Shown here: positions 1,522 to 27,610 of the stretch, in pieces
How positions within the stretch are numbered: position 1 is the stretch's first letter
Layout: each line of letters begins with the position of its first letter
Virus record (IMG/VR): IMGVR_UViG_3300009788_000206
Location: 1-37,085 of that record
Direction: 5' to 3' (one strand)
From: a virus
DNA length: 37,085 bases
The notes under the pieces: generated by a model
Told to the model about the DNA's origin: nothing
The model's input: the letters and a program-made list of their open reading frames with translations, nothing else
Database searches by the model: none
Translations under genes and position numbers: made by a program

Positions 1522-1897
1522 AAACGGACTCATTGCAGGAGCGCTGCTCGCCGGACTCGTCCTCGGGGGCACCGCCATGAAATATTTTGGCACCTACGAT
1601 GCCCCGCTGGTTCTCGTGCATGACGCCCCGGACCCGCTACCCGATCTACGGGTGATCACCTCGATGGATGACCTCGACACCGGGATCGCTTGGGATGACG
1701 GGGCGACCGCATTGGTGATCATCGTCGATGGTGTGGGGCTGTGCACGGTAGAGAGGTCAGAGTACAGGGCCGCGTTTGCCCGTATGTGTGGGCTAGGTAG
1801 ACCAGAGTCAAACGCGCTCGAAGTGCGGCCCGTCGAACAGCGGCTCCCCGGTGCGTCTGCTCTTGAAGTCCCCACCCCACCTGATGGGGATGAGTAG
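1514..1897 (+). CDS. Hypothetical protein with N-terminal membrane anchor
   Basis: A 127-residue protein from an ATG at 1514 (AAAGGA upstream), overlapping the previous gene by 8 nt. Residues 5-23 (GLIAGALLAGLVLGGTAMK) are a short hydrophobic, Gly-rich anchor. The middle is acidic, and a Leu/Ile/Val-rich run (ATALVIIVDGVGLCTV) suggests a small alpha/beta fold. I do not recognise the family. The last 30 codons run antisense to the 3' end of the endolysin gene, a tail-to-tail overlap of 90 nt, so the C-terminus may be less constrained. It is the last gene of the plus-strand operon. Confidence 0.6.
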   Translation: MFENGLIAGALLAGLVLGGTAMKYFGTYDAPLVLVHDAPDPLPDLRVITSMDDLDTGIAWDDGATALVIIVDGVGLCTVERSEYRAAFARMCGLGRPESNALEVRPVEQRLPGASALEVPTPPDGDE

Positions 1898-2239
1898 CTC
1901 CGCCGCCGCCCGCTTCCACCCGATGGATAGCGCGGTGTAGAGTTCGCGGTCCCACGTGATGCTCCGGTCCTGCTGGTCGACCACGCCATCCGCGTTGAGG
2001 TCCCCGACGGCCATCACGTCGACGGCGTGCCCGTACCCGTCGTCCTGCGGTAGGTGCTTGCTGTCGAGCGTCCACGAGAACCCGTCGGCCACGAGCTTCC
2101 GCTGGCGCTCCATGTTCCGGAGGCCCTCGGTGATCATCCAGTCGACAGGGGAGTAGCTGAGCGCGAGGGGCGCGAGACGCACGAGGTCCGGGTGGACCCC
2201 CTCGAGATTCGATAGCGATCGTCTTCCGAGTTCAAACAT
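1808..2239 (-). CDS. Endolysin, M15-type L-Ala-D-Glu peptidase with EF-hand-like loop
   Basis: A 143-residue single-domain enzyme predicted to cleave the L-Ala-D-Glu bond of peptidoglycan stem peptides at lysis. It has the peptidase M15/VanY signatures: S60-x-H62 followed by GHAVD (zinc ligands H62 and D74), and WGGDF near 121 followed by FDGPHFE (catalytic D136, ligand H139). Directly after the second zinc ligand lies GDLNADGVVDQQD (79-91), which fits an EF-hand/dockerin-type calcium loop (D80, N82, D84, D91). T5 endolysin is a known case of an M15 peptidase activated by calcium, so regulation by calcium is plausible. There is no signal peptide, so a holin would be needed for release; the membrane protein genes just upstream suit that. 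Its length is normal for the family. Confidence 0.9.
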   Translation of the reverse strand: MFELGRRSLSNLEGVHPDLVRLAPLALSYSPVDWMITEGLRNMERQRKLVADGFSWTLDSKHLPQDDGYGHAVDVMAVGDLNADGVVDQQDRSITWDRELYTALSIGWKRAAAELLIPIRWGGDFKSRRTGEPLFDGPHFERV

Positions 2240-2485
2240 TCAGAACCTCCACTCGAAGCCGCCTATCCCACGGAGCTGGGGCGGGGCTCCTGGTCGTCGA
2301 GTGACGGAGCCCCGGGCGAACGCAACCACAGACTCCTTGAGGCGATAACGCAGATCCAGATTAGCACCAACAACAGCGCCTCCAGTACCACCCTCAACGG
2401 TAGCGCCGAGACCGAGCGAGCCACGTCGAGGACCCAACCAAGCGGACTCCAGTCCATCACTCAGCTCGCCGGCGAGGGCTCGGGC
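2240..2485 (-). CDS. -1 frame extension of the holin-like gene (probable frameshift fusion)
   Basis: This frame encodes 81 residues that look like a real protein: an alpha-helical start (ARALAGELSDGLESAW), then a beta-rich Gly-containing stretch with alternating hydrophobic residues (e.g. ANLDLRYRLKESVVAFARGS), ending in GGFEWRF, an aromatic-x-Phe ending reminiscent of outer-membrane beta-strands. There is no ATG or GTG in this frame that would make an independent gene. The frame lines up exactly with a -1 slip at G GGA AAG in the 91-residue gene, which would give an 84 + 81 = 165-residue fusion. The one rival is a TTG 17 codons in, with GGAG 9 nt upstream, giving about 65 residues. I favour the frameshift. 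Confidence 0.6.
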   Translation of the reverse strand, partial: ARALAGELSDGLESAWLGPRRGSLGLGATVEGGTGGAVVGANLDLRYRLKESVVAFARGSVTRRPGAPPQLRGIGGFEWRF

Positions 2486-2736
2486 TTTCCCAACGATGCA
2501 GCCACCGCCTCTTTGGCCTTCGCTTCCAGGGCCTGCGCCTCCGCCTGTGCCTCTCGGGGCTTGGCGTATCCGCGGCTCGCGATGTACGCGGTGGCGATCC
2601 CGCCCACCACGTAGAGCAGCTCTTCGAGTAGCTCTTCGGGCCAGCCGAGCTTCTGCGCCAACAGGGGCGAGATCATGCCGACGATGGCCACCCACAGTTC
2701 TGACTTGTTTGCCTTCTCAGGGATTCGGAGTTTCAT
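2461..2736 (-). CDS. Holin-like small membrane protein (zero-frame product)
   Basis: A 91-residue protein. Residues 13-29 (ELWVAIVGMISPLLAQK) and 38-57 (ELLYVVGGIATAYIASRGY) are two hydrophobic segments, followed by an Ala/Glu/Lys-rich helix (REAQAEAQALEAKAKEAVAAS). Two membrane segments plus a charged C-terminus next to an endolysin gene fit a class II-like holin, but no family-specific motif proves it. The start overlaps the end of the upstream gene by 20 nt, with AAAGGG about 8 nt before the ATG. Near its 3' end is a GGGAAAG slippery heptamer in the right phase for a -1 shift, so a longer form is probably also made (see the entry at 2240-2485). Confidence 0.75.
   Translation of the reverse strand: MKLRIPEKANKSELWVAIVGMISPLLAQKLGWPEELLEELLYVVGGIATAYIASRGYAKPREAQAEAQALEAKAKEAVAASLGKPEPSPAS
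2485..2491 (-). promoter_or_regulatory. Slippery heptamer G GGA AAG for -1 ribosomal frameshifting
   Basis: Read on the minus strand in the frame of the ATG at 2736, the codons are TTG GGA AAG, so the last G of TTG plus GGA AAG form a perfect X XXY YYZ heptamer. GGGAAAG is the site used by phage lambda for its G/GT tail proteins. Just downstream, at 2469-2480, is the self-complementary CTCGCCGGCGAG, able to form a short GC-rich hairpin with a 4-nt loop, about 5 nt after the heptamer. The zero-frame stop follows seven codons after the slip site. Confidence 0.6.
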
Positions 2737-3100
2737 CGGGGACCCTTTCGATGCGCCACCGGGGGACGCCTACCTGTTCAGCGGTTCGGATCGAGTTGGT
2801 GACGAGGATGCTCATCTGAGCTTTGATCAAGTCTATCTCTTTCTGCCGGGCTTTGTCCCGCTCCACTATCACGGGGTGGCCCACGATCTTTTCGTGCGTC
2901 AACAGGTTTTTGTCCTGCACCTTGTTCACCTCGTCGGCCTTCTCCTTGGCCGTCTTGGCGTTGGCGGTGCTCACGTAGAAGTGGTCGATGACCTTCATAG
3001 AAGCGGTGAGCGCGCCGAGGATCAGAAGAAGACCGCCTAGCGCGGACCTCCATCCAACCGTGACCGTCTTCGCCCTGGTCTCTGTTTCCGTCTCAGACAT
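2717..3100 (-). CDS. Membrane-anchored coiled-coil protein, spanin-like topology
   Basis: About 127 residues. I chose the ATG at 3100 (MSETETETRAK), just after the upstream stop; an in-frame ATG at 3118 adds six residues inside the previous gene. A single hydrophobic segment (ALGGLLLILGALTASMKVI) follows a short charged N-terminus. The rest is a long charged helix likely to form a coiled coil (TANAKTAKEKADEVNKVQDK, then RDKARQKEIDLIKAQ). An N-terminal anchor plus a coiled coil beside holin and endolysin genes resembles an inner-membrane spanin (Rz type). No outer-membrane lipoprotein partner with a lipobox was found, so this role is only inferred. Confidence 0.65.
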   Translation of the reverse strand: MSETETETRAKTVTVGWRSALGGLLLILGALTASMKVIDHFYVSTANAKTAKEKADEVNKVQDKNLLTHEKIVGHPVIVERDKARQKEIDLIKAQMSILVTNSIRTAEQVGVPRWRIERVPDETPNP

Positions 3101-3101
3101 C

Positions 3102-3329
3102 CTACGGACCTTCCCCATCCCCCGGAACCATCACACGCAGATGGAGTATCGAGCCCACCCCGTCCTCCGTTGCGCTGACCGTCGTGACCTCACACTCGGC
3201 CCGGTGGGCTTCGTTGTCTGGTGAGAAGAAGCTCGACACCCAGAGCACGAACACCGCGGTCATGAACGACGTGGCGGTGACCATAGCCACGCTGCCCGCG
3301 TACTTCTTGAGACGCCGAGCGCCGTTCAT
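3102..3329 (-). CDS. Small membrane protein of the lysis region
   Basis: A 75-residue protein. A basic N-terminus (MNGARRLKKY) is followed by one hydrophobic segment (residues 13-32, VAMVTATSFMTAVFVLWVSS) and then a soluble, probably periplasmic, tail of about 40 residues with a single Cys. The ATG at 3329 follows the upstream stop by 1 nt (TGACATG), so the genes are coupled. The function is unrecognised. Its position between exported proteins and the holin-like gene suggests a lysis or envelope role, but that rests on context only. Confidence 0.6.
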   Translation of the reverse strand: MNGARRLKKYAGSVAMVTATSFMTAVFVLWVSSFFSPDNEAHRAECEVTTVSATEDGVGSILHLRVMVPGDGEGP

Positions 3330-13207: not shown

Positions 13208-16200
13208 TCACTTGGAGATTGCCGCGTCGAGTTTGATGCCGCGCTTCCCTGCCGTCTCGAGCACGAGCATCGAGGGTCGGAATCCTTCTTTGGTGCCCGC
13301 GAGGTCCGCGTCGTAAATCGCGAACCGGACCACCTGGAGCCGTTGCCGCGCCATGCTGATGCGGATCTGCTCAACGTCCCCTAGAGTGTACCCCGAGCTC
13401 GCGTCGAGCGTCACCGTCTGGATCGGGGTCGTCTCATCCCAATCGACGTACACGTCGACGGTCAACGTGTGGGCGCTTCGCCACTCGCCGAGGATGGCTG
13501 CGCGGAACACTCGCTGGAGTTGGGAGATTGCCTGGATGCGGAGCCACGGGGTCTTGAGTAGCTGCACCCCCGTGTGGTCGGTCGGGCTCTGGATCAACAC
13601 GTATCCGTTGATCGAACTGTGCTGCGGGGCGATGTACCGGTTCCCCCCGAAGAAGATGACGTCGACGGGCGATGCAGCCAAGCCGGTCAGGGCCGCGGAG
13701 TACGACCACCGCTTGAACTCGGTGTTGTAGATGAGGAACCGGTGCTCGTCGGTGAGGAACCAGATCTCCCCGCGGTCGTGGGGCTCCTCGATCTTCAGCA
13801 CGTTGAACGAGTCGAAGTCCTCGACGGGCGCGCCAATGAACAGCACCTGATTGGACCTGTCGAGGAGCCGGATCCCGTCATTGCTCTTGAAGTAGATCCC
13901 GTCCGAAGACCGGTGGATGGAATTCGAATCGACGCACCCGACCCCCCGGGCGATCTCTGTGAGCGGACCGAAAGCCCCGGACCCGGTGTCGTTCGGGGCG
14001 ATCGCTGGCATCGTGTGGATCGCCTCCTCTTCGAACACGATGATCCGGCCGTCCATATGCTCAATCGCCACGGCATCGAACCCCAGGGGCTTCACGAGCT
14101 CGGCCGCGAAACTGACCCCAACGTTGTCGGCGATCGGCTTACTCACCCAGAGACTCGATCGCTCATCAGACGACAGCACCCAGAGCCGGCCGTTCGCCTT
14201 CACCATGGAGTCGGAGGGCGGTGGGCTCACGTTCTCGAGGAACCCTCCCTCGGTGTAGAGCAGCTCGTTGTCAGCTAGATCCGTGTCGTCGACGGTGTCG
14301 GTGAGCGTCAGGGTCCCCGCAGCATCGTCTCTCCACTTCACCGAATTACCGGTGTTGAAATAGACGCTTCCGCCGTCTGTGGTGCGGTAGGCGTAGATCT
14401 CGATCCCGTAGTTCTGGCGCTCGATGAGCACGGGGGGGACGTAGAAGTCGATATCGACACTCTGGAGCGCACCACCACCGGACAGCGTGATGGCCTGCGC
14501 GGCTGACGGCCTCGACCTATAGATCCTGCCGTCTTGGGTCTGGAACTCCGCTACGAGCTTGTAGTTGTAGGTGCCATCGGACATCGAGCCGCCGGTGCCG
14601 GCGCCAGTGAGGGCAAACTCACCTTGAGTCTCGAACGGCCCCATCGGGAGATAGAACCCATCGAAGACCCCCAGATAACCGCCGGTGCGCAGTAGAGAGC
14701 GGCCGAAGTTTGTCGAGCGTTTCGCGCGCCCGTGAGTTTGGTACCGAACCTCAACCGCCTGCTCGATAATCTGGCCGTCGCTGATCAGACGCATTCGACG
14801 ACGGCCCCCGAACCCATAGAGACCGGTCGCGTGGTTTGCGATCTCGCTCATCTCGCCAACCGACGCGAGTTCACCAGCGGCGTCTCCGAGGGCCTTTGCG
14901 GCCACCGACCAACTGATCGCCGTGGAGCCGGTGCGCAGGTGCTCACCGTTGACAACCAGGTAATAGGTTTCTTGCAGCGACTGAGTGGAGGCGATCGGCA
15001 GATAGATGGCCCGATTGTCGTCGAACATCTTCGCCACGATGGTGGCGTGGTAGAGGCTGCGCGGTGGTCTGGTGGAGGCGCCGCTCGATGTCGTGTGGCG
15101 CATGCAGAATATGTAGTTCGGGACCCCCCCGGCGGCAGCGTACTCAACAGCGACCTGGGTGAAGGCCGTGCCCTCCCCCCCCCCGGTGATCCGCACGACA
15201 TTCGCGGTGTCGGTGCTCACGTCGCGCGGACCGAACGACACCGAGACATCGTTCAACCCGCTGGCGCCGATCACGGAGTACCGTGGACGGCTCGAAGAGT
15301 TGCTCTGCCACGTAAGGATGTGGCGGCTCTGCGCCGAGACGCGGGCCACCGAGAGAACGTTCTTCGGCTGCTCCGCGTGGAGGGATGCGTCAGCCTGCAG
15401 GACGGTACCGTCGACCCGCACTCCTATGTGGTAAATCTCTCCGGCGGCGCCATTGAAGTAGTAAATATCCAGGTAGTCGGATCCAGACCGCCACGCCACA
15501 TCCCAGAGCGCGGACGTCGGAAGCACCAAGGCCTGGCCCGAGGAGGTCCCGAGCGTCACGGTGTTGAACACCTGCCATTGGATGACGCTACCCGTACTGA
15601 ATATCCAACCGAGCGACTCGTTCCCGGTCTCCTCAAAAACCACCGGCTTGAATTCGGTGGTGTTGATTTTACTCTGCTCGTACACGACCCGGCCTGTCGC
15701 GTCCTCGGTCACCCGCAAATAGGCGGTCCCGAAGTCGGCGGTCAGGTGCCAGACCTTCGTTGTGTAACCGTTCACGGACGCGGTTTGCACCTGGGCCACG
15801 TCGGTAGTTCCTTTGGAGATCTTCTCGACAACCGTGCGGGCCGCTGGGGCCCATTGGGTGTTGTTATACGTCTGGTCGTACCCAACGAACTCCAGGCGAT
15901 CGCTATCGGGGTCATATGTGCCTACAGCACGCTTTGCCGTGCTGTCCCCAGCGTCCCACAGGCCTTCGAGGTAGACGTTTCCCCGGTGCTCCATCGCGGT
16001 GTCGAAGAACTCGCCGCGCAGAGATCCGCTCCCATTGTAGAACGGCCCCACTACGACGCCGGCCAGCAGCTTGCGGACCGCCCCATCTTTGTCGAAGTAC
16101 CCGTTCTCGACGACGGCGTTGAAGCCCTTAGGGAGCAGCTTGTCGACGATCTTGTTATTGACGCCGACGGCCAGAGGGATCTCGATGGGTGGGTGCTTTT

Positions 16201-16210
16201 TTAGAGCCAT
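13208..16210 (-). CDS. Tail nozzle / DNA-stabilisation protein (T7 gp12 or P22 gp10-like)
   Basis: A protein of about 1000 residues. The start chosen is the ATG at 16210, overlapping the upstream stop (TGATG); two GTG codons just before it are alternatives. The N-terminus, with a conserved-looking NAVVENGYFDKDGAVRKL, and the long run of beta-strands with repeated aromatic/Gly blocks resemble the beta-propeller nozzle proteins of short-tailed phages (tail tubular protein B, packaged-DNA stabilisation protein). It directly follows the adaptor gene by two small genes, as in T7 and P22. The nozzle closes the portal channel and carries the fibres. No enzymatic motif is visible. It is somewhat longer than T7 gp12 (about 800 residues). 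Confidence 0.75.
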   Translation of the reverse strand: MALKKHPPIEIPLAVGVNNKIVDKLLPKGFNAVVENGYFDKDGAVRKLLAGVVVGPFYNGSGSLRGEFFDTAMEHRGNVYLEGLWDAGDSTAKRAVGTYDPDSDRLEFVGYDQTYNNTQWAPAARTVVEKISKGTTDVAQVQTASVNGYTTKVWHLTADFGTAYLRVTEDATGRVVYEQSKINTTEFKPVVFEETGNESLGWIFSTGSVIQWQVFNTVTLGTSSGQALVLPTSALWDVAWRSGSDYLDIYYFNGAAGEIYHIGVRVDGTVLQADASLHAEQPKNVLSVARVSAQSRHILTWQSNSSSRPRYSVIGASGLNDVSVSFGPRDVSTDTANVVRITGGGEGTAFTQVAVEYAAAGGVPNYIFCMRHTTSSGASTRPPRSLYHATIVAKMFDDNRAIYLPIASTQSLQETYYLVVNGEHLRTGSTAISWSVAAKALGDAAGELASVGEMSEIANHATGLYGFGGRRRMRLISDGQIIEQAVEVRYQTHGRAKRSTNFGRSLLRTGGYLGVFDGFYLPMGPFETQGEFALTGAGTGGSMSDGTYNYKLVAEFQTQDGRIYRSRPSAAQAITLSGGGALQSVDIDFYVPPVLIERQNYGIEIYAYRTTDGGSVYFNTGNSVKWRDDAAGTLTLTDTVDDTDLADNELLYTEGGFLENVSPPPSDSMVKANGRLWVLSSDERSSLWVSKPIADNVGVSFAAELVKPLGFDAVAIEHMDGRIIVFEEEAIHTMPAIAPNDTGSGAFGPLTEIARGVGCVDSNSIHRSSDGIYFKSNDGIRLLDRSNQVLFIGAPVEDFDSFNVLKIEEPHDRGEIWFLTDEHRFLIYNTEFKRWSYSAALTGLAASPVDVIFFGGNRYIAPQHSSINGYVLIQSPTDHTGVQLLKTPWLRIQAISQLQRVFRAAILGEWRSAHTLTVDVYVDWDETTPIQTVTLDASSGYTLGDVEQIRISMARQRLQVVRFAIYDADLAGTKEGFRPSMLVLETAGKRGIKLDAAISK

Positions 16211-16566
16211 CACCACACCACCAATCTGACGGTGACACTCGCGCTACACGCAAGTGGCAGGTGTTTGGAGAGATCCGCGTCCGACGCGGCGACGCGCCAC
16301 ACAATGGCCGGTCCCTGAATGTCTGCGAGGTACCAGCCCCTGATCTTCCTATCGAGACCGTGCGCGACGAGGTTCTCGATCCCCGCAGTGAGGGAGATCC
16401 CTTGGTTGTTGCCGGCGTTCTTCTCGATGAACTCTGCCGACAACTGCGGCCGGCGCTCGCCAGCGATCTCGTCGGTGACCGTTCGGATCTGCTGCTGCAT
16501 CACCTCCAGGTCAAAGGGGGTGACCGCTTCACCAGTTGGCTTGTGCTCTTTGAACTCTGGGATCAT
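16210..16566 (-). CDS. Hypothetical head-tail region protein
   Basis: A 118-residue protein. It has a helical N-terminus (DLEVMQQQIRTVTDEIAGER), then a central GIENLVAHGLDRKIRGWYLADIQGP segment that looks like a short helix followed by beta-strands, and a beta-rich end (ASVTVRLVVW). This pattern is common in small proteins between adaptor and nozzle genes of podoviruses, some of which coat or attach fibres, but the role is not settled. Its stop overlaps the start of the nozzle gene (TGATG), so their synthesis is coupled. Confidence 0.65.
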   Translation of the reverse strand: MIPEFKEHKPTGEAVTPFDLEVMQQQIRTVTDEIAGERRPQLSAEFIEKNAGNNQGISLTAGIENLVAHGLDRKIRGWYLADIQGPAIVWRVAASDADLSKHLPLACSASVTVRLVVW

Positions 16567-16569
16567 CGC

Positions 16570-16842
16570 CTAGGGCTCCGCGGCAACCACCTGGATGGCC
16601 CCAGTGTTGAATCGTGCTTGCAGCTGCGTCTTCCCCCCACCGTCGTCGGCGGCGAACAGGCGGACCTCATTCGTGGGGGAGCCGGCCGGCGCAGTCCTCT
16701 CGGCAAACGAGACCGTGTTGTCCTCCATGGCAAACCCGAGCCCCCCGCTGTTCGTGGCCTCGAAGTTCAGCGCGAATAGGCGCTCGGCGAACGTCACCTG
16801 CACGGAGACCACGGGGCCCACTGTCACGTCGCCGACAGCCAT
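16570..16842 (-). CDS. Small hypothetical virion protein
   Basis: A 90-residue protein from the ATG at 16842, which overlaps the adaptor stop (TGATG). The sequence is beta-rich and acidic. Its end, TQLQARFNTGAIQVVAAEP, resembles the conserved (R)FxTGxxQxxAxEP ending of small phage proteins found beside head-completion genes. No catalytic motif, signal peptide or membrane segment is visible. It is likely a minor structural protein of the head-tail junction. Confidence 0.65.
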   Translation of the reverse strand: MAVGDVTVGPVVSVQVTFAERLFALNFEATNSGGLGFAMEDNTVSFAERTAPAGSPTNEVRLFAADDGGGKTQLQARFNTGAIQVVAAEP

Positions 16843-17543
16843 CACCAGTCCTCGAGGCGGTCGAGTTCCCCGCCCCCGCTGTAGCGTACGTCGACGACGT
16901 GCACCGGCTCGTTTGCGTCGCGGTTCTCCGCCGACTCCATCATCGACTTCTCGATTACACTCCGCTCAAACGCGAGATCCTTGATGTCCTGCTCCCCTTT
17001 GATCACGCATTTGATCGCGGCGTCGACGACGATCCACCGGCTCCACCCAGAGATCATCCCCGTTGCCAGGAGATCCGCGTCGGCGACCAACACCGTCACC
17101 TGTGGCGCGTAGAGGATACGGCCGGTGTACGCCTGGTTGGGTGATGGGGTGAAGACGATGTTCGAGCCCCGCAGCATGTAGCGGAGAGCCTCGATGTCGC
17201 GCAGGCCACTGGGGAGGCGCCCAGAGAATCGGTTGCGCTCGGCGTTCCCGTACCTGCGCACTGAGTAGAACTCGTTCTGAGTGCTCCCTGAGATCAGGAT
17301 ATCGACGCCGTTGAGCTTGAAGAAGTCGGCGGGCAGCGCGTATTCGCTGGTGCTCCCCACGATGGCAAGGGCCGCCGTGGTCTCGAAATACGGCTCGTGG
17401 ATAGCGATGAGCTTCTCGTAGAGCGCCTCGTACGAGTCGTTGATGAAGTCGTCGAGCTGGGTGTTCGGGACAAAGCCACCCGACGGCAGATCCGCGAGCG
17501 ACAGTACCCGCGCCCGCAGACCTGCCAGGTCGGTTCGAGCCAT
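16842..17543 (-). CDS. Head-to-tail adaptor protein (T7 gp11 / P22 gp4 type)
   Basis: A 233-residue protein. The N-terminal 60 residues are helical with an early LRARVLSLADLP and TQLDDFINDSYEALYEKLIA, as in adaptors that dock under the portal ring. A beta-rich middle (SEYALPADFFKLNGVDI, then GRILYAPQVTVLV) and a C-terminal helix pair (DAAIKCVIKGEQDIKDLAFE) complete a typical adaptor layout. It lies between the capsid region and the nozzle gene, the expected position. Its length fits the family (about 170-250 residues). The assignment rests on architecture and order rather than one diagnostic motif. Confidence 0.75.
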   Translation of the reverse strand: MARTDLAGLRARVLSLADLPSGGFVPNTQLDDFINDSYEALYEKLIAIHEPYFETTAALAIVGSTSEYALPADFFKLNGVDILISGSTQNEFYSVRRYGNAERNRFSGRLPSGLRDIEALRYMLRGSNIVFTPSPNQAYTGRILYAPQVTVLVADADLLATGMISGWSRWIVVDAAIKCVIKGEQDIKDLAFERSVIEKSMMESAENRDANEPVHVVDVRYSGGGELDRLEDW

Positions 17544-17549
17544 TGTCCC

Positions 17550-17765
17550 CTACTCCCTGGTTTCGTGGTCCATCATCGCGATGTCGAACGCCCTGCGGAA
17601 CGCGGTCATTGCCTCGCGCGGTTTGTTGTCCTGTAGCGCGACGCTCAGATCCGCCATGGCGTTCTCCATGCCCATCTCCTCAACCTCCGGCTCCTCGATG
17701 GGGCTCTCCCCACCGGGGCCGCCGATGGCGTTGAGGATCTCGTCGGTGCTCCCGCCGTATGCCAT
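17550..17765 (-). CDS. Small acidic hypothetical protein
   Basis: A 71-residue protein. A flexible, acidic first half (ESPIEEPEVEEMGMENAMAD) is followed by a helical second half (NKPREAMTAFRRAFDIAMMD). No motif is recognised. The ATG overlaps the stop of the upstream gene (TAATG), so it belongs to the virion operon. It could be a small scaffold-like or packaging-related helper, but nothing in the sequence proves it. Confidence 0.55.
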   Translation of the reverse strand: MAYGGSTDEILNAIGGPGGESPIEEPEVEEMGMENAMADLSVALQDNKPREAMTAFRRAFDIAMMDHETRE

Positions 17766-18634
17766 TAGGCTACCGGGGTCGTTCCGTCTTGGAACATGAC
17801 GTCGAAGCTGATGCGGTTGTCTGCGTCAGCGGCGATGTCGGCCAAGAGCTTCTGGGTGTACTCGAGAAGGGCCGAGTACAGGTAGATGATGTCATTTGCG
17901 TGGGCGCCAGGGACGATCCCGATGTTCAGGAACCCGGGGGCCGCCGCGATGTTGGCGTTGGCCAGGGTGACGGCGTACTCGGCGAGCGTCGCCACCGCGA
18001 GCGCCGGGGTGTTGCCCCCCATCTCCGTGTCGCCAATACCGTCCCACGCCTGCACGTCGATGACGGCCGCGGTGTCCGTATTGGTCCCCTTCGAGATCAT
18101 CAGGCGGACGATGACGTCGGACCCAGCGTCTAGATCCGCGGGCTTCGGTACCGGCGGGAACTGGATCTCGTCAACCTCGGTCGCGGCCCAGACGACGCGG
18201 AGCGCCTTGTCGGTGGCGGCATTGACGCGAGCGAGGGCCGGGACGCTATCGGACGCGAGGAGCCCGCCGTGCGCCGCGAGATTCTGGATGGCATCGCCCG
18301 CAATCTCTCGAGCTGCCGCGACGTCGAGCGGGATCGACATGGTGCTGACCTTCAGCACCGAGATGGCGAGAGTTTTGTTGGCGGCCGAGTAGGCGCCGAA
18401 CTTGATCTCGTACCCGATCGGAGCAACGAGGCGGATATCCGCAAGCGCGCTCAGCATGTGGGCGTATGGTTGCCGGAACGTGAGCAGGTAGAGGCCGACG
18501 CCGGTGCGGGTGACGGAGAAGCCACGGCCCTTCACGGCGGTTGGGGCGCTGGTGCCGGCAGGCGCAAAGCTACCGGAGACAATCTTGACCCCGGCGTTGA
18601 AGTGCTTGAGTTCGTACGAAGTGAGTTGAGTCAT
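17765..18634 (-). CDS. Probable virion structural / head decoration protein
   Basis: A 289-residue protein with alternating strands and short helices. The N-terminal KGRGFSVTRTGVGLYLLTFR segment looks like the small beta-domain of phage head-fibre or decoration proteins. A second beta-rich region (SDVIVRLMISKGTNTDTA) and a helical C-terminus (LNIGIVPGAHANDIIYLYSA) follow. There is no signal peptide. It is the first gene after the major capsid gene, separated from it by a strong hairpin (18680-18715), which is where decoration proteins are often encoded. The exact function is not established. Confidence 0.65.
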   Translation of the reverse strand: MTQLTSYELKHFNAGVKIVSGSFAPAGTSAPTAVKGRGFSVTRTGVGLYLLTFRQPYAHMLSALADIRLVAPIGYEIKFGAYSAANKTLAISVLKVSTMSIPLDVAAAREIAGDAIQNLAAHGGLLASDSVPALARVNAATDKALRVVWAATEVDEIQFPPVPKPADLDAGSDVIVRLMISKGTNTDTAAVIDVQAWDGIGDTEMGGNTPALAVATLAEYAVTLANANIAAAPGFLNIGIVPGAHANDIIYLYSALLEYTQKLLADIAADADNRISFDVMFQDGTTPVA

Positions 18635-18679
18635 GGTGGATTACCTATCGCTCATCCTTGGTATCCGTTCTGGAACTAG

Positions 18680-18715
18680 GGGGGTGGGCGCTTGGATACG
18701 AGGGCGCCCACCCCC
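18680..18715 (-). terminator. 12-bp perfect stem-loop after the capsid gene
   Basis: GGGGGTGGGCGC (18680-18691) and GCGCCCACCCCC (18704-18715) are exact reverse complements separated by a 12-nt loop. The hairpin starts about 25 nt after the major capsid stop on the minus strand. No T-run follows it, so it may be a partial terminator, a pause, or an mRNA-stabilising end that raises capsid mRNA over downstream genes, rather than a full intrinsic terminator. Confidence 0.65.
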
Positions 18716-18740
18716 GACAGACTGGCTAGGTCTGCGAAGA

Positions 18741-19958
18741 TCAGGTGGGGAGAGTGACCCGCACGTTCCGACCGGGTGCCCGACCACCGAGCTGGCCGTA
18801 GTAGCCAACACGGAACTCGTCACCATCTGCAGACGACAGACGGAGCAGCTTGTTCCCGTCACGCTGGAGAATGCGCGGGCACTTCTTCAGCGAGTAGAAC
18901 TTCCAGCACCGCATATCGAGGCCCCATGCGATGTTGGGCTGGCAATCCTGGTCGGCGATGACCTTGATCAGGCCCTTCGGACCCTGCACCTCGTAGGCCG
19001 GGAAGTTGACCTCGGCGGTCGCGTGCACCTGCACATACTCCCGCTTCGAGCCCAGGATCTTCCCGAGGTCGCCCCACCGCTCCATCGACATGAAGTAGTG
19101 AGTGACCCGCCCACCGTGGCGGCCAGCTCGGACCGCACCGTTGATGAGCGCTTCCTCGATGTTCTCGCCGTTGGTGGTCGAGTCGTATCGAGCACCGCCC
19201 AGGCGCACGCTGTCCGCCGTGCGGTCGACGCCGAAGAACGCGGTCGAGGTGACCGAGCTCGGCATCCACGCATCGAGGCCCTTGACCTTGGCGTTGAGGT
19301 CGCCGCTGGTGAGCAAGTAGTCACTCGCCGCCAGGTCGGTCATCACGGTGTTCCAGGCTGCGGAGGTCGCGGTCAGGACGCCCGTATCGCGGTCGATACC
19401 AGCGAGGATCTCCTGTCCCGTGTCGTACGCTCCGCCGTCCGTGGACGTACCGCGAAGAACCATCCCGACCTCGAAGGCTACGCTGTCCTCGGGGTTGGCA
19501 AGGGTGATGACTTGGGCAGAGACCGTCGAGCCCGCCGAGACCTGACCGATGGAGCCAGTCCCGTTGCGGTAGAGGCTCGTCGCCAGCGAACTGGAGATCG
19601 CCTCGAACGCGCTGTCGAATTCTGTCGTCGCGGCATCCATGAACGCGTCGGCGTCGTCCTCCGCCGCATCCATGGTCTCCCCGTCGATGGAGGCAACCGC
19701 GTAGTCCTTCGCACGAGTGAGGACAAAGTCCTCGATCTGCGTCGGCCCGCTGTTGGTCTGCGCGGTCGCGAATGCCGCCGAGCGGCCCGCGATGTTCCCG
19801 TAGATGATCGGGATCGGCAGGTTCTTACCCTTGAACTTCTCGTCCTTCATCAGGAGCGCGAGAAGCGGGTGGTCGTTGTAGGTGAGACGCTCGACCTCGT
19901 CGTCCGTGTAGTGGACTTTCAGGGCGGCGTCAAAACTGGTGAGATCCAGCGAGGCCAT
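18741..19958 (-). CDS. Major capsid protein (HK97-fold)
   Basis: About 405 residues from the ATG at 19958 (MASLDLTSFDAALKVHY), with GGAG 8 nt upstream; a TTG at 19964 is less likely. The layout is that of HK97-fold capsid proteins without a cleaved delta domain: an N-terminal arm, a spine-helix region (TEFDSAFEAISSSLATSLYR), a beta-rich P-domain and A-domain (e.g. RKHYF-like RVTHYFMSMERWGDL), and a C-terminal strand region. It directly follows the scaffold gene and precedes a strong hairpin, as expected for the most abundant virion protein. The fold is inferred from pattern and context. Confidence 0.85.
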   Translation of the reverse strand: MASLDLTSFDAALKVHYTDDEVERLTYNDHPLLALLMKDEKFKGKNLPIPIIYGNIAGRSAAFATAQTNSGPTQIEDFVLTRAKDYAVASIDGETMDAAEDDADAFMDAATTEFDSAFEAISSSLATSLYRNGTGSIGQVSAGSTVSAQVITLANPEDSVAFEVGMVLRGTSTDGGAYDTGQEILAGIDRDTGVLTATSAAWNTVMTDLAASDYLLTSGDLNAKVKGLDAWMPSSVTSTAFFGVDRTADSVRLGGARYDSTTNGENIEEALINGAVRAGRHGGRVTHYFMSMERWGDLGKILGSKREYVQVHATAEVNFPAYEVQGPKGLIKVIADQDCQPNIAWGLDMRCWKFYSLKKCPRILQRDGNKLLRLSSADGDEFRVGYYGQLGGRAPGRNVRVTLPT

Positions 19959-19994
19959 GTGCAAAGCTCCAAGCGGAGCTGATGTCCGATGGAC

Positions 19995-21029
19995 CTATTC
20001 GTCCACAAACACCAGCGTTGCAGCCGAGGTCTTGAGCCGCTCATCGCGGTCCTTGAACGGCTGGACCGCGCGAGGCGGGGCCGTAGCACCTTGGCTGGCT
20101 GTCAACGTCTTGCCCGGCTTTGCTTTGGGGGCTTCTGGATCTGGCGTTGGGGCCGCGGGGTCGGTCTCGGGGGGAGGATTCCCACCGTTCTCGGCCCTGG
20201 CCTTCAGGATCTCGTCGAAGGTCTCTTTGAAATCTGGCAATTCAGAGAGGTTCTTCACGAGTTCCTGCATCTTCGGAACGTAGTACTTATTGACGACCTT
20301 TGCGGCTTCGCCAATTTCAAGGATCTTAGGTTCTCCGAAGGCTTCCTGAGTCCTTTGCGCATGCTGCTGGATGACAGCGAACACCTCGTGCCCAAGGTCC
20401 GCATGTCGCAGCATTTCCAAACCGTCTGTAGTGTCGATGTGGGTCTTGATCTCGGCGTTGTACGACTTGTGAGCCGCCTCGGCATCGCGTCGCTGCTTGG
20501 CCTTGGCCTCGGTATCCTGGGCCTCGGTCTGTGAGGCTCGCCACTTCTCGAACTCCGCGAGCTTCGTCTGGGTCTCCCGGAGTTCGGCCTCGAGCGGGTT
20601 GGTCGGTTTCTCGCCCTGCTCCTTGAGCCATGAGTCGGACCACTCTTGGAGTGACCCGCCTGCGTCGGTCATCACCCCGTAGTCCTTCGAGTCGACGCGC
20701 TTCTTCAGTTCCCGGAGCTGCGCGAGCTCATCCTCCGACTCTTTGATCTTCTTGTCTCGAGTCTGTAGATCGCGGCTCTTCCGCATCATGGCCTCGAGCT
20801 GCTCGTTGTTCCCCGGTGGGGTGGCGGCGGGCTTCTCGGGCTCGGTGGGGGCTGGTTTGTTGGGGTCTACTGGATCGGCGGGGGCCGCGGGGTCGCCGCT
20901 CGGTTTGGCGGCGGCGGGGTCCGGTTTGACCTCCGTCGCCGCGGCCGGGAGCTTGACGCGCTCGGCGAGCAGGTGCGGTTCAATCGGAGTCGCAGGGGCC
21001 TCGGCGGGTGCTTGTGCGGGCGTCGTCAT
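19995..21029 (-). CDS. Capsid scaffolding protein
   Basis: A 344-residue protein between portal and capsid genes. Residues 1-75 are Pro/Ala-rich and disordered (e.g. PAAPADPVDPNKPAPTEPE). Residues 76-280 are highly charged helices likely to form coiled coils (RKSRDLQTRDKKIKESEDEL, RETQTKLAEFEKWRASQTEA). A second Pro-rich linker precedes a short basic C-terminal segment (FKDRDERLKTSAATLVFVDE), the part that in scaffolds usually contacts the capsid protein. This disorder/coil/basic-end layout is typical of podovirus scaffolds. No protease motif is visible. Confidence 0.8.
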   Translation of the reverse strand: MTTPAQAPAEAPATPIEPHLLAERVKLPAAATEVKPDPAAAKPSGDPAAPADPVDPNKPAPTEPEKPAATPPGNNEQLEAMMRKSRDLQTRDKKIKESEDELAQLRELKKRVDSKDYGVMTDAGGSLQEWSDSWLKEQGEKPTNPLEAELRETQTKLAEFEKWRASQTEAQDTEAKAKQRRDAEAAHKSYNAEIKTHIDTTDGLEMLRHADLGHEVFAVIQQHAQRTQEAFGEPKILEIGEAAKVVNKYYVPKMQELVKNLSELPDFKETFDEILKARAENGGNPPPETDPAAPTPDPEAPKAKPGKTLTASQGATAPPRAVQPFKDRDERLKTSAATLVFVDE

Positions 21030-21071
21030 CGCTTCTGATTTTGTAGGCTACTTTTCGTCGACTGGCAAGTG

Positions 21072-23072
21072 CTACGCCGCGACGGCCGGTGCGACCTGTG
21101 GTGGCATCCCCTGGGGTGGTCCGGCAGCCGCGGGTGTACCCGGTGCTCCGGGGCCCCCAGGTGCGCCGGCAGAGTCCACCACCGGTGGTGGTGGCGCCGC
21201 TGCCTTCATGAGGATCCCGGCGTCGCTCATCCACCTAGTCAGTAGATTGCGGCGGGCCTCCGGGGTGCCGTCGTGCTTCGACCTGAGGTACGAGGCCAGC
21301 ATCCGCTTCATCCCGATCTGGAGGTTCTGGGTTGAGTCGGGTGGTAAATACACCATGTCGGCAATCAACTGCTCACGATCGAGGTCGTCCATATCCTTCG
21401 TTGTGGCCTCCTCCAGCTCCTCGTCCTCGGGCTCGCGGTAGATCATGTCGTCGATCACCTGGTCGATGTCGTCGACCGCCGCAGTGACCAAAGACACCGC
21501 GTCCTCGAGATCCGGCATGTCCATGAGCTGCATCCCCTCCTCTTTGGACAGATACCCGGCCTGGATCCACTCGTCGATCTGCGCGTAGCGGGCCGCCGGG
21601 GTCTTCGGGAGCATCGAGGTGGGGAAGATGCTCATCTCGTACTGGTTCTCCTCGATGTCGATCTCCGAGAAGAGGATCGTCGAGAGGAACCGGTTGTTCG
21701 CGACCTTCACCTGTAGCTCTGGGTGCTTTGTGTAGAGTTCTTGGGCCAGGATCACCACGAGCCGCGCGAGGTCCACGAAAGTATCCTCGTACGACTGCTG
21801 CACGACGGCGAAGCGCTCCGAGCCGATATCGTCGTACTCGCGCAGGGCCTTGCCGCTGTTCAACCCGCTCGGCTTCTTGCCCGTAGCGCTCATCTGGTTG
21901 ACGCCGGTGTTCTCGTAGGCCTGCTGGATCAGGAACCCAATCTGTTCCCGGCGCCCTGGCGTGACGTTGTTGGGATTCATGACGGTCGGGGGTGCCGAGC
22001 CCGACGCGTGGGTGAGGACCGCGCCGATCCGGTTGACCCAGTGGCTCTTCGGGATCTTCGCTCCCTCCTCGACGATAATCCTCGAGACTGATAGGTCGAG
22101 TTCGCGCTCCATCGCGTCGACGTGCTTGTTGATGCTGACCTGGATCCCGGTGATCTGGTCGACGATGCCCAACCCCGTCATCCCGAGCACGGGCGCCCCG
22201 TAGAGGAAGAGCGAGAAGGGGAAGCGGTCGTACTTCCACTCCTCATCGAGGAGTGTGTCGTTGTCGATGGTCATCGCCCGCCGCCCGTCCTTCGCATTGG
22301 GCCCGGACGGCAGGTGCCAACTCTCAACGATCTGGATCATGTCCGAGAGGTTGCGGTGGGCGGCGATGCCCGCGCTGGCCTTGGCCTGTGGGGCCATCTT
22401 GATCTTGACCGCGTGCTCGTTCTCCGTGCCGTCGTCGTTCATCCCCCAGTCCTGGAGCACGACCTCGCGCGACAGAAACTTCCGCTGGTGGATTTGTTGG
22501 GGCATCCCCTCGCTGGCCTCGGAGTCGTCGTAGAGCAGCTCGTCGATGAAGACCCGCTCGATCTTGATCTTCTTCTCCTCCCAGTCGATCCAAGACTTAT
22601 AGACTCCGGTGCCCGTCATCCCGCCGTCGCGGAACACCACGGGGCCCTGTTTGTAGACCTTGGACTCTTGGAACACGCCGAGCACGAACTTCGAGAGCTT
22701 CTTGGCGTGACGCTTCAGGCGGTAGTCGGCGCCGTCGGTCATCACCACGGGCCGCGGCCGCTCCTTGGCGATGTGGGCGGTGGCCGTGTCGACCACAGAG
22801 CGACAGACGTTGATGCGGACCCGACCGTTGCGCCGGCCCTGGGTGGTGGCGAACGTCAGCGGCGACAGGCCGAAGACCGGGAGATTACCGTAGAGCCGCA
22901 CACGCCGGAGGTTGTCCTCATGCTTGTGCATCTGGTGGGAGTCGAGGAACCGCACGGTGTCGAACACGGCCTTGTGGACGTCTTTCTCACGCCCCTGCGC
23001 CCTAGACTTCCACCAGTACTCGGGCCTCTGATTGGTTCGTCCCGCCTGCTCGTTGTATCGATAATCACCCAC
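21072..23072 (-). CDS. Portal protein
   Basis: A 666-residue protein that would form the dodecameric ring through which DNA is packaged and to which the adaptor binds. It has the portal layout: an N-terminal region with RINVCRSVVDTATAHIAKERPRP-type wing/stem approach, a central GIVDQITGIQVSINKHVDAM helix typical of the podovirus portal core, and an acidic helical C-terminal region (EDEELEEATTKDMDDLDREQ). It ends in an unusual Pro/Gly/Ala tail (e.g. GAPGGPGAPGTPAAAGPP) that looks collagen-like and disordered. It lies between the terminase and scaffold genes. Confidence 0.85.
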   Translation of the reverse strand: MGDYRYNEQAGRTNQRPEYWWKSRAQGREKDVHKAVFDTVRFLDSHQMHKHEDNLRRVRLYGNLPVFGLSPLTFATTQGRRNGRVRINVCRSVVDTATAHIAKERPRPVVMTDGADYRLKRHAKKLSKFVLGVFQESKVYKQGPVVFRDGGMTGTGVYKSWIDWEEKKIKIERVFIDELLYDDSEASEGMPQQIHQRKFLSREVVLQDWGMNDDGTENEHAVKIKMAPQAKASAGIAAHRNLSDMIQIVESWHLPSGPNAKDGRRAMTIDNDTLLDEEWKYDRFPFSLFLYGAPVLGMTGLGIVDQITGIQVSINKHVDAMERELDLSVSRIIVEEGAKIPKSHWVNRIGAVLTHASGSAPPTVMNPNNVTPGRREQIGFLIQQAYENTGVNQMSATGKKPSGLNSGKALREYDDIGSERFAVVQQSYEDTFVDLARLVVILAQELYTKHPELQVKVANNRFLSTILFSEIDIEENQYEMSIFPTSMLPKTPAARYAQIDEWIQAGYLSKEEGMQLMDMPDLEDAVSLVTAAVDDIDQVIDDMIYREPEDEELEEATTKDMDDLDREQLIADMVYLPPDSTQNLQIGMKRMLASYLRSKHDGTPEARRNLLTRWMSDAGILMKAAAPPPPVVDSAGAPGGPGAPGTPAAAGPPQGMPPQVAPAVAA

Positions 23073-23096
23073 CGGTCACTCCGGACGGGGAGCCCC

Positions 23097-23321
23097 CTAC
23101 TCGGGGTAGAGCTCCTCATCGGTAAATCCGGTGCTCGGGTCGACCCCCTGCTCCTCCGGCACGTCCTCTGGGTCGATCTCCGGCTCCGGCACGACGAACG
23201 CGCCGGGGGAAAACGTCACCTTGAGGTCACCCGCCTCGAAGCCCTGGACCTTCTGCTCCCTGCACCACGAAATGAAGTCTTTGACCGTGCTCAGGTCTGT
23301 AAATAGCTTCTCTACACTCAT
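23097..23321 (-). CDS. Small acidic hypothetical protein between terminase and portal
   Basis: A 74-residue protein. The N-terminal half is mixed alpha/beta (KLFTDLSTVKDFISWCREQ, then GDLKVTFSPGAF); the second half is acidic and Pro-rich (EPEIDPEDVPEEQGVDP). Its ATG overlaps the terminase stop (ATGA), so it is translated with it. No family is recognised. Small acidic proteins in this place sometimes act in packaging or as portal helpers. Confidence 0.6.
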   Translation of the reverse strand: MSVEKLFTDLSTVKDFISWCREQKVQGFEAGDLKVTFSPGAFVVPEPEIDPEDVPEEQGVDPSTGFTDEELYPE

Positions 23322-24829
23322 CCGAATAACGCCTCCACCTCGTCGGGCTCCTCGAGGTCGGCCTCGTCGGCCTCTATCAGCTCTTGCTCGAGCTTGTCGT
23401 AGTATTCGTCGGTCCCGGCTTTCGGCTGCTCCTCCACCGGCTCATGTCGATAGTGCCTCGCCTCGCGCCATGCGTAAAGGCCGGCGTCCGCGCAATCGTT
23501 CGGGAACCTGTCGTCCTCGTGCCCAGAGTCGTCCTTCTGCAGGGCCTCCCACTCGGTGATCAGTGTACCGCATCGAGTGGGGTCCACGTGGATCAAACCC
23601 TTTCGGAAATCGGCGTTCATCGCCTCCTGAAACGCCAATTTGTCTTTCTTCTCGGCGGCGATGAGGGCGAGGTGGTGCCGGCGCCGCATCTCCTCGACGA
23701 TCATCTTCCCGAGGGCCCCGGTGTCGACCACCGTCTTGAGCGGCCCGTACTCGTCCTGGAGCTGGCGGATCCTCTTGGCGACGTCGGTGATGTCCATGCC
23801 GCTCTTCTTCTCGGACCGCACGAACTGGCACCACGGGACGTCCGGCGAGAACGCGACGACGACGAAGGCCGTTGCATCGTCGTGCCCCAGGTCGACGCCG
23901 AGGATGTAGAACCACTCGTACCCCTCGCGCGACGCGGTGGTCCACCGGTACCGGTTCTTCTCCGGGTCCCACTTGTAGACCATCGACCCGTGGTCCCGAA
24001 CCCACAGCGCCAGCCACTCGCGGTTGAGGATCGGGTCGTCGTCGTCCCAGTTCTTCTCTATCTTCTTGGCCTTCAACCAGTTCTTCGCGCGCTGGCGCCA
24101 GTTGCGCTTTCGTCGCCACTTCGGGAACAACGGGTTGTCCAACACGGTCCAGTGGTGCTTCGACCACCCGGAATCCACGTTCATCGTAGCGTCGTAGAAC
24201 ATCCCGGCGCACGCGCGTGATGGCGTGCCGATCATCATCACGGTGCCGCTGTAGTCCTCGAGCGTCGGCTCCAGCACCTCTTCGACGAGCTGCTCGAGGT
24301 AGGCCTTAAACGATGCGGTCTCGTCGAGCACCACGAGCAGGAAGGCGATCCCCCGGAACTTCTCGATCTGATCGAGCTTGTCGGCGCCCGCCACCCAGAT
24401 CTCGGAGCCGTTCGGGAAGTGGGCCACCAGGTCGGAGAGCTTGAACGTGATCCCCAGCTTGTAGTGTCGGTTGAGGCGCTTGAGTTCTGGCCAGATCAAC
24501 CGCTGTGCCTGTTTGCTCGTGATGGTGAGGTAGCCGCAGAGGGCTCCGGGTCGGTTCAGACACTCGCGCACCAGGTACGCGGCGGCCGTCGTGGTCTTCC
24601 CGGCTCGGCGACCGCAGCGGGCGGCCTTCCTGCGTGACGGGTCGCGGATGAGCTTGAGCTGGTGGTTGAACAGGTGCTCGAGGACCCGCTCACCCTCACC
24701 CGTGTACGCACCCACGGTGGTCTCGAGGTACCTCTCACTGTGGCGGTACCGAGCCTCGTCGCTCACCTGCCTGCTGCGGCGGTGGAGCTTCCGTAGGGCC
24801 TGGCGGATGAGGGTAGCGGGTACGGGCAT
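23318..24829 (-). CDS. terL: Terminase large subunit
   Basis: A 503-residue packaging motor. The ATPase half has Walker A GRRAGKT (73-79), Walker B LVVLDE (165-170) and a coupling-motif IGTPSR (200-205). The RNase-H-like nuclease half has three acidic sites in FYILGVDLGHDD (D313), TVVDTGALG (D369) and FPNDCADAG (D445/D448). The enzyme cuts concatemers and drives DNA into the procapsid through the portal, encoded just downstream. The length is normal. No adjacent gene is an obvious small terminase; candidates are among the small genes upstream. The C-terminal tail is strongly acidic (EADEADLEEPDEVEALFG). Confidence 0.92.
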   Translation of the reverse strand: MPVPATLIRQALRKLHRRSRQVSDEARYRHSERYLETTVGAYTGEGERVLEHLFNHQLKLIRDPSRRKAARCGRRAGKTTTAAAYLVRECLNRPGALCGYLTITSKQAQRLIWPELKRLNRHYKLGITFKLSDLVAHFPNGSEIWVAGADKLDQIEKFRGIAFLLVVLDETASFKAYLEQLVEEVLEPTLEDYSGTVMMIGTPSRACAGMFYDATMNVDSGWSKHHWTVLDNPLFPKWRRKRNWRQRAKNWLKAKKIEKNWDDDDPILNREWLALWVRDHGSMVYKWDPEKNRYRWTTASREGYEWFYILGVDLGHDDATAFVVVAFSPDVPWCQFVRSEKKSGMDITDVAKRIRQLQDEYGPLKTVVDTGALGKMIVEEMRRRHHLALIAAEKKDKLAFQEAMNADFRKGLIHVDPTRCGTLITEWEALQKDDSGHEDDRFPNDCADAGLYAWREARHYRHEPVEEQPKAGTDEYYDKLEQELIEADEADLEEPDEVEALFG

Positions 24830-24861
24830 GCGTCACCCACAGCATACACCGCCGGGCTGCG

Positions 24862-25119
24862 TTACTTCAGTCGCCGGACCTTCTTGATGCAACACTTCGG
24901 GAGAGCGAGCGTGTGGTCGTAGTGCTCCGGGCCAATGCTCTGGGTGATCACGAGACTCCCATCTTCGTCCTTGCGCGTGACGAGACCCACAGACCGAACC
25001 ACCAGCCCGATTGGTCTCGATCGCTCGGTCACCTGTTCGGGTTCGTGCCACGACCCACCGATGGAGTGCGGGTCAATCCACGTGACTTCTACGGGGTACG
25101 GCTTAAACGGCTTGCTCAT
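24862..25119 (-). CDS. Conserved-looking small phage protein
   Basis: An 85-residue basic protein. It begins FKPYPVEVTWIDPHSIGGSW, a pattern seen in small phage proteins near terminase genes, and looks like a small beta-barrel (e.g. IGLVVRSVGLVTRKDEDG, SLVITQSIGPEHYD), ending in a basic tail with CC (PKCCIKKVRRLK). The function is unknown. GAGG lies about 11 nt before the ATG. It is the first gene downstream of the hairpin at 25144-25178 and the last before the terminase. Confidence 0.65.
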   Translation of the reverse strand: MSKPFKPYPVEVTWIDPHSIGGSWHEPEQVTERSRPIGLVVRSVGLVTRKDEDGSLVITQSIGPEHYDHTLALPKCCIKKVRRLK

Positions 25120-25143
25120 ATTCTATCGACCTCGAAGAAGGTC

Positions 25144-25178
25144 CCCGGGCTCTGGGACCCCTCGGCCCCGAGCCCGGG
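25144..25178 (-). terminator. GC-rich stem-loop between small genes
   Basis: CCCGGGCTC (25144-25152) and GAGCCCGGG (25170-25178) are exact reverse complements with a 17-nt loop. The element follows the 53-residue basic gene by 12 nt and lies just upstream of the 85-residue gene. On the minus strand it is followed by GGACCTTCTT rather than a T-run, so it could be a weak terminator or an mRNA end that separates the accessory block from the packaging genes. Confidence 0.45.
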
Positions 25179-25189
25179 TGGTTTCTGGG

Positions 25190-25351
25190 TCAGTACTTCA
25201 TCCCGGGGCGTAGTTCCTTCCGGCCGCTCGCCCGGGGCGCTGTGTTCTCCGATGTCGCGGTCGAGTGCATCGGGTTCTTGCCCCCGCCCCCGTAGCCGCC
25301 GCTCTTCTTGCCGCCCTTCTTCCCGCCGCCCTTTTTTCCGTAGCTCGCCAT
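25190..25351 (-). CDS. Small Gly/Lys-rich basic protein
   Basis: A 53-residue gene. The ATG at 25351 has a strong GGAGGAA site 4 nt upstream. The first 26 residues are low-complexity Lys/Gly/Tyr (MASYGKKGGGKKGGKKSGGY then GGGGKN); the rest (NPMHSTATSENTAPRASGRK, then ELRPGMKY) is polar and basic. The strongly positive, disordered N-terminus would suit binding to DNA, RNA or acidic proteins, but no function is established. Its clear ribosome site, codon-by-codon sense and snug placement between the DHH gene and a hairpin support it being real. Confidence 0.7.
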   Translation of the reverse strand: MASYGKKGGGKKGGKKSGGYGGGGKNPMHSTATSENTAPRASGRKELRPGMKY

Positions 25352-25416
25352 CGTGTTCCTCCATGAATGAATTGGCCAATAGTCTCATGAGTACCACACG
25401 GGGCGCAGATGGTCGA

Positions 25417-26280: not shown

Positions 26281-26714
26281 TGGCTATCCTCGATGTGCCC
26301 GAGTTCCTCGAGCAACTGCTTCGCGTCGTCGTACCATGCGCCTACGGTGTCACCATCGCGTTCGCCGGGGGTGCGGGTGCGGAGACTCATTGCCCGGATC
26401 AACATGTTGGCGAGTTTCACGGCCTCTAGTTTGTCTCTGGCCTCCCCCTCGTACACCAGAGCCGAGATCTGCCTCTCGCTGACCTCCAACCGGCCCACCC
26501 GCTCCTCGATCCGCCCAAGGTTGATACCGAGGCGGATGTGGTTCCCATCACAGAGCCCACACACCTGAGCCGCATCGATGTTGTACCCACCATCTAGGCG
26601 TGGCGTCACCTCGAACGTTTCCCCCCCACACCGGGTGCAGTGGTGACGGTTGCTGCACGATACATCCAGCTTGGCGTCGGAGAGTTCGGCTTTGCTGAAG
26701 TGGATGAAGCTCAC
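26277..26714 (-). CDS. Zinc-ribbon hypothetical protein
   Basis: A 145-residue protein. I choose the GTG at 26714, which overlaps the previous stop (GTGA) and follows GAGGTGC; longer in-frame readings lie inside the upstream gene. Near residue 26 there is HHCTRCGG and near residue 52 VCGLCDG, two CxxC pairs forming a probable zinc ribbon. The remainder is helical (RIEERVGRLEVSERQISALV, then ARDKLEAVKLANMLIRAMSL). Its function is unknown. It ends by overlapping the start of the DHH gene. Confidence 0.65.
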   Translation of the reverse strand: MSFIHFSKAELSDAKLDVSCSNRHHCTRCGGETFEVTPRLDGGYNIDAAQVCGLCDGNHIRLGINLGRIEERVGRLEVSERQISALVYEGEARDKLEAVKLANMLIRAMSLRTRTPGERDGDTVGAWYDDAKQLLEELGHIEDSQ

Positions 26715-27076: not shown

Positions 27077-27171
27077 GCTTTCTCCTGTGCTGGTTCCGTC
27101 CATCGCAAGTACCGGCCTCTTGTCGCGGTAGATGAGCGGCGCGTTATCTGGAACGATGTTTGCCCTCGCCG

Positions 27172-27608: not shown

Positions 27609-27610
27609 CT

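Follow-up and report, generated by a model that had tools for sequence, protein, structure and literature searches.

A small holin-like gene on the minus strand of the window (positions 2736–2461) very probably undergoes programmed −1 ribosomal frameshifting near its end; from sequence comparison, we place the probability of this reading at roughly 0.88. The window is the whole stretch of viral DNA analyzed here, the 37,085 nucleotides of IMG/VR record IMGVR_UViG_3300009788_000206. According to the proposed mechanism, most ribosomes would stop at the TGA of the gene and release a 91-residue protein, while a fixed minority would slip on the heptamer G_GGA_AAG and yield a 165-residue fusion carrying a helix and four β-strands. 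Slippage would be stimulated by an upstream GAGG in the window and in the relatives with GGGAAAG, and by a 3′ hairpin in the clade with AAAAAAG. The phase, the heptamer, the −1 frame, and the selection acting on the β part come from the comparison itself; that slippage occurs, and at what frequency, we infer. The features of the locus are as follows.

2717–3118, minus strand: small protein combining a single hydrophobic segment with a long helical region (from sequence)
2461–2736, minus strand: holin-like gene, 91 residues, two hydrophobic segments, the 0-frame product (from sequence; homologues at the corresponding position of 34 loci)
2508–2511, minus strand: Shine-Dalgarno-like GAGG, 16 nt 5′ of the heptamer (from sequence; putative function)
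2485–2491, minus strand: slippery heptamer G_GGA_AAG, in phase (from sequence; an in-phase heptamer in 35/35 distinct sequences)
2465–2476, minus strand: palindrome CTCGCCGGCGAG (no evidence for a stable RNA hairpin)
2240–2491, minus strand: −1 frame extension of the fusion, with a helix, four predicted β-strands, and C-terminal GGFEWRF (from sequence and model)
2435–2437, minus strand: TTG in the β frame with GGAG 9 nt upstream (2450–2447), a rival start (not kept as a start in relatives)
2263–2457, minus strand: nested frame-0 ORF (ATG 2457, GTG 2460) with one hydrophobic segment (from sequence and recoding test)
1808–2239, minus strand: M15-type endolysin, directly 3′ of the β frame (PHROG 465, E 1e-40)

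The Holin-Like Gene and Its Neighbors

The holin-like gene starts with ATG, ends with TGA, and lies between the tail fibre region and the endolysin. As read from the sequence and the neighboring genes, its product is a small protein with two membrane segments, a charged C-terminus, and an adjoining endolysin. It had no match in Pfam and matched PHROG 962 weakly (E 0.064), and the corresponding protein of locus L244 gave a weak match to PHROG 9987 (E 0.017). From this anatomy and the neighboring endolysin, we infer that the short 91-residue form is a holin. The endolysin directly follows the holin/β locus in the window and in L245 and L246 (PHROG 465; also PHROG 894, tested for L245), and an endolysin-like protein (PHROG 33083) follows in L217. 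A gene similar in design to that at 2717–3118 precedes the holin in most relatives inspected; the arrangement in L244 is different.

Two other observations concern this region. The endolysin (2239–1808, minus strand) contains DLNADGVVDQQD, which resembles a calcium-binding EF-hand-type loop within the M15-like domain. In many relatives, very small Lys/Arg-rich proteins are clustered after the β gene (e.g., L205 4224–5115 and L240 4209–5408).

The Probable Shift Site and the −1 Frame in the Window

The initial annotation had described a 91-residue, two-segment membrane protein gene with an in-phase GGGAAAG, followed by a −1 frame of 81 codons ending in GGFEWRF, and these elements were all confirmed. 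The heptamer occupies 2491–2485, is phased TTG GGA AAG, and stands 28 nt 5′ of the TGA of the gene. The −1 frame extends for 81 codons past the Gly-Lys, to a TGA at 2242–2240, giving a fusion of 165 residues. What had been missed is a 65-codon ORF in the original frame, which opens immediately past the holin stop and includes a hydrophobic segment.

By itself, the window offers weak evidence for a frameshift, and its relatives carry the weight. A comparable heptamer appeared in 3% of synonymous recodings of the last 15 codons of the gene, which makes its presence modestly unlikely. Codon scores in the window did not separate the frames, as the −1 frame and frame 0 after the stop scored equally, both near zero.

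Conservation among Relatives

No match came from scanning viral contigs with the holin, p133, and β frame of the window itself, and loci reached through the endolysin did not show the β protein. Relatives were found by way of the major capsid protein, whose alignment to two distant relatives led to 60 contigs, and later by alignments of the β part, which led to 24 and 45 loci. Two contigs from the capsid search, L111 and L112, carry the same gene pair as the window. The β ORF of L111 (read as L183/L200) is in the −1 frame relative to the holin that it overlaps, and the last codons of that holin are CTG GGA AAG TCC CAA GAG AAG TAA; in L112, where the pair is divided between the two ends of the contig, GTG GGA AAG lies inside the holin. 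After removal of duplicates, the comparative set consisted of 35 distinct sequences, namely the window and 34 IMG/VR loci.

It had been proposed at the outset that relatives should keep both the heptamer and the −1 frame, and this is what was found. The β ORF lies in the −1 frame of the holin wherever both are readable (35/35 distinct sequences), and every one of the 35 has an in-phase slippery heptamer before the holin stop: GGGAAAG in 24, AAAAAAG in 10, and GGGAAAC in 1, at 10–40 nt from that stop. The β parts of the relatives share 19–37% identity with that of the window. From holin stop to β stop, the distance is exactly 212 nt in 19/19 readable loci of the first β scan and 221 nt in the window. 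Synonymous recoding of the holin end produced an in-phase heptamer in 1–21% of cases per lineage, and the product over six deep lineages (the window, L244, L245, L239, L211, and L205) is about 7e-10, a figure to be taken as a guide only because the lineages share ancestry. In a tree of the fusion, the sequences with AAAAAAG group together in a single clade (support 96/87). As read from the sequences, one slippery heptamer has been swapped for another in that clade (GGGAAAG to AAAAAAG), with the phase retained.

Several side observations came from the same contigs. About 10 of them (L209, L218–L222, L225, L227, L237, and L247) start or end inside or very near the holin/β overlap, as if assembly often fails there, at a genome end or through local variation. 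The last β codons of relatives, such as ATG AGG TGG TGA in L211 (4220–4235), resemble the Shine-Dalgarno sequence of the next gene, and the conserved R-W end may therefore be partly a translation signal. IMG/VR contig 3300024265_000317 is 99.99% identical to window positions 14539–29444 over 14,906 bases and is the same virus, in part. The putative major capsid protein (19964–18741, minus strand) has some 60 relatives among viral contigs, but at E 1e-3 none of 50,697 named phage records matched it.

Putative Stimulatory Elements

Both G_GGA_AAG and A_AAA_AAG are highly shift-prone in E. coli, and the published internal Shine-Dalgarno element is located 10 nt 5′ of its shift site (PMC5009743). 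In 20 of the 24 GGGAAAG sequences, a GAGG, often extended to GGAGG, has its 3′ end exactly 13 nt 5′ of the heptamer; the spacing in the window is 16 nt, and the element is absent from L239, L240, and L243, which also have GGGAAAG. This Shine-Dalgarno-like GAGG is the probable stimulator in the window and its GGGAAAG relatives, judging from its placement. Most AAAAAAG sequences have no GAGG and have instead a hairpin that begins 5–6 nt 3′ of the heptamer. The hairpin was significant in the three strongest AAAAAAG loci tested (z −3.9 in L201, −3.1 in L203, and −4.6 in L205) and weaker in L223 (−1.6), L217 (−1.1), and L232 (−1.4). RNAalifold showed no two-sided changes (covariation) in the AAAAAAG clade, so that its hairpin rests on stability and one-sided changes.

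For the window, a GC-rich palindrome about 5 nt after the heptamer had been put forward as a 3′ element. The palindrome, CTCGCCGGCGAG, in fact starts 8 nt after the heptamer, and it was rejected as a stimulator, as the RNA 3′ of the heptamer folds no better than shuffled sequences (z +0.8; +0.1 and +0.4 for windows of 57–61 nt).

Selection on the β Frame and Alternative Explanations

In the first 126 nt after the holin stop, both frames are similarly constrained in 17 relatives (pN/pS 0.60 and 0.64). Past this doubly coded part, in the last 86 nt, the values for 17 relatives were 0.22 for the β frame versus 1.34 for frame 0, which indicates that the β frame is coding. This result bears directly on the scarcely credible proposal that the β frame is non-coding and that the 65-residue frame-0 ORF after the stop is the sole gene. 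The equal scores of the two frames in the window would agree with such a proposal, as would the frame-0 ORF's own excess of hydrophobic codons; however, beyond the short frame-0 ORF it is the β frame alone that is conserved, and the β C-terminus is conserved in all loci. That the frames are joined by transcriptional slippage rather than by ribosomal frameshifting is very improbable. The six A residues of AAAAAAG would suit this process, but 25 of the 35 sequences use GGGAAAG or GGGAAAC, with runs of three bases only, and a Shine-Dalgarno-like element upstream exerts its effect on ribosomes (PMC5009743).

A quite improbable alternative, though better placed than these two, dispenses with the frameshift and makes the β part a separate gene that overlaps the holin and is translated from TTG 2437 in the window or from GTG or ATG in the GGGAAAG clade. 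The initial annotation had stated that the −1 frame has no start of its own. This held insofar as no ATG and no early-enough GTG is found past the heptamer, but it overlooked the TTG at 2437, which has GGAG 9 nt upstream. The relatives likewise point both ways, as a GTG (ATG in L212) stands at a fixed place throughout the GGGAAAG clade, whereas other lineages have no usable start: in L217/L233 and L223/L238, the β frame is free of ATG, GTG, and TTG from the end of the holin up to the last eight codons, and in L244 the first possible start falls within the domain, 37 codons before the end. With three lineages in this state, initiation cannot be the general route to the β part. A separate gene would also leave unexplained why 35/35 sequences have an in-phase heptamer, why this was exchanged for a different slippery one, and why GAGG stands at 13 nt, while the fixed GTG is explicable by a Trp codon of the nested frame-0 ORF. 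The TTG of the window and the GTG of the GGGAAAG clade may be additional independent starts alongside the frameshift. Because the heptamer is shared with lambda G/GT, a tail assembly chaperone of that type was considered as well; it was rejected on account of the two hydrophobic segments and of where the gene lies, with the tail fibre region on one side and the endolysin on the other.

A Nested ORF in Frame 0

Frame 0 reopens after the holin stop with an ATG or GTG close by, and in most loci the resulting ORF has 37–65 codons and a hydrophobic segment, which often follows a basic stretch; in L244 and L245, the ORF comes after a second stop. Across the nested ORF of the window, 24 β codons end in T versus 6.9 expected from the window's own usage. 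Each such T is the second base of a frame-0 codon, so the frame-0 codons are hydrophobic. The corresponding T excess in relatives is 1.9-fold along the hydrophobic stretch, falling to 0.74-fold beyond it. Synonymous recoding of the β codons rarely matched the frame-0 hydropathy (P 0.0002 for the window and ≤0.011 in 16/16 lineages). Collectively, these patterns suggest that a nested single-span membrane protein is likely to be a third product of the locus.

Fold and Possible Roles of the Proposed Fusion

The β part of the window was modelled as a helix and four strands of 10–15 residues, with a mean pLDDT of 72.5; a first AlphaFold2 model from 12 rows was set aside (pLDDT 55). The β domain had no match in Pfam, and a Foldseek search with it returned nothing below E 0.1. 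A match of the fusion to PHROG 1397 (E 0.018) was dropped, as 12 of 14 control genomes also match at that loose cut-off. The model aligned to the Hia and AtaA anchors with Z 5.9–6.1, with unrelated sheets scoring equally or higher. Porin strands and trimeric-autotransporter anchors gave a low rmsd to the model, as did unrelated sheets, all at Z <8. Since unrelated sheets align equally well, the fold does not favor any one place of action for the β part. The last strand has alternating residues and ends in W or F, a pattern like that of outer-membrane proteins, which is suggestive and no more. As read from the sequence, neither the fusion nor the nested ORF of the window has a lipobox.

Our preferred role, held tentatively and by analogy at a little short of an even chance, is that the fusion is a minority long form which co-assembles with the short form and sets the timing of lysis, much as the dual-start holin of lambda does through a different mechanism. 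As a second choice, which appears rather unlikely, the fusion could act as a single-protein, spanin-like link whose β part is directed towards the outer membrane after hole formation. A bolder reading, less likely still, is that this locus of about 500 bases encodes three proteins that all act on membranes: a holin, a single-span protein nested in an overlapping frame, and a fusion of the holin with an outer-membrane-inserting β part that would function as a spanin of a new type. If that three-protein reading is true, the proportion of inner- to outer-membrane effectors would be fixed by ribosomal slippage.

Novelty and Significance

Programmed frameshifting and lysis cassettes are both of known kinds, and no description of a conserved −1 shift in a lysis gene of a tailed phage was found. 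The literature search, which covered the smaller part of the subscription papers, returned no frameshift in a holin, antiholin, or spanin gene. Annotated programmed frameshifts of tailed phages are nearly all in tail assembly chaperones, which account for 2397 of the 2476 joined genes in SEA-PHAGES, the rest being hypothetical (PMC10885494). Searches of INPHARED phages by tblastn were empty or not meaningful with every version tried, and the holin/β protein family had no counterpart in INPHARED or PHROGs. Neither the β protein nor the nested ORF was matched in PHROGs or in those named phage records that were searched.

Frameshifting conserved in a lysis gene would represent a novel means of fixing the ratio of lysis proteins. 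The interchangeable slippery sites and the two kinds of stimulator across relatives would offer a good natural series for studying the evolution of shift sites. Gene callers are likely to overlook the β protein and the nested ORF throughout the group.

Comparison with Known Systems

In the tail assembly chaperone gene G/GT of lambda, a −1 shift shortly before the first ORF ends adds a C-terminal extension, and slippage sets the ratio of the two products; tail chaperones are encoded before the tape measure gene. The holin-like gene resembles G/GT in the place of the shift and in the C-terminal extension, and the heptamer GGGAAAG is common to both (PMC5009743). The two are not homologous, as the window gene has two membrane segments, a β extension, and an endolysin neighbor.

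The dnaX gene of E. coli combines A_AAA_AAG with a 3′ stem-loop, like the AAAAAAG clade, and has an internal Shine-Dalgarno sequence 10 nt 5′ of the site (PMC5009743), compared with 13 nt in the GGGAAAG clade. Unlike the shift in dnaX, which ends the protein early, the shift proposed here extends it, and in the holin/β family the two stimulators mostly occur in different clades.

The two-form principle is shared with dual-start holins. For example, lambda S105 and S107 are two forms from one small membrane protein gene whose N-termini differ by the choice of start, whereas here the frameshift would add a C-terminal domain of about 80 residues.

Coding in overlapping frames is known in lysis genes from Rz/Rz1 and from the coat and lysis genes of MS2, as in the present locus; Rz1 is a lipoprotein with a start of its own. 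In MS2, coat translation is cut short by a frameshift, which opens the lysis start and yields no fusion lysis protein (PMC10885494). The unimolecular spanin gp11 of T1 joins a membrane segment to a region in which a short helix precedes at least four strands, like the fusion (PMC6139136). In gp11, the lipobox is N-terminal and the transmembrane segment C-terminal; the fusion has N-terminal transmembrane segments and no lipobox seen, and its order is thus the reverse of that in gp11.
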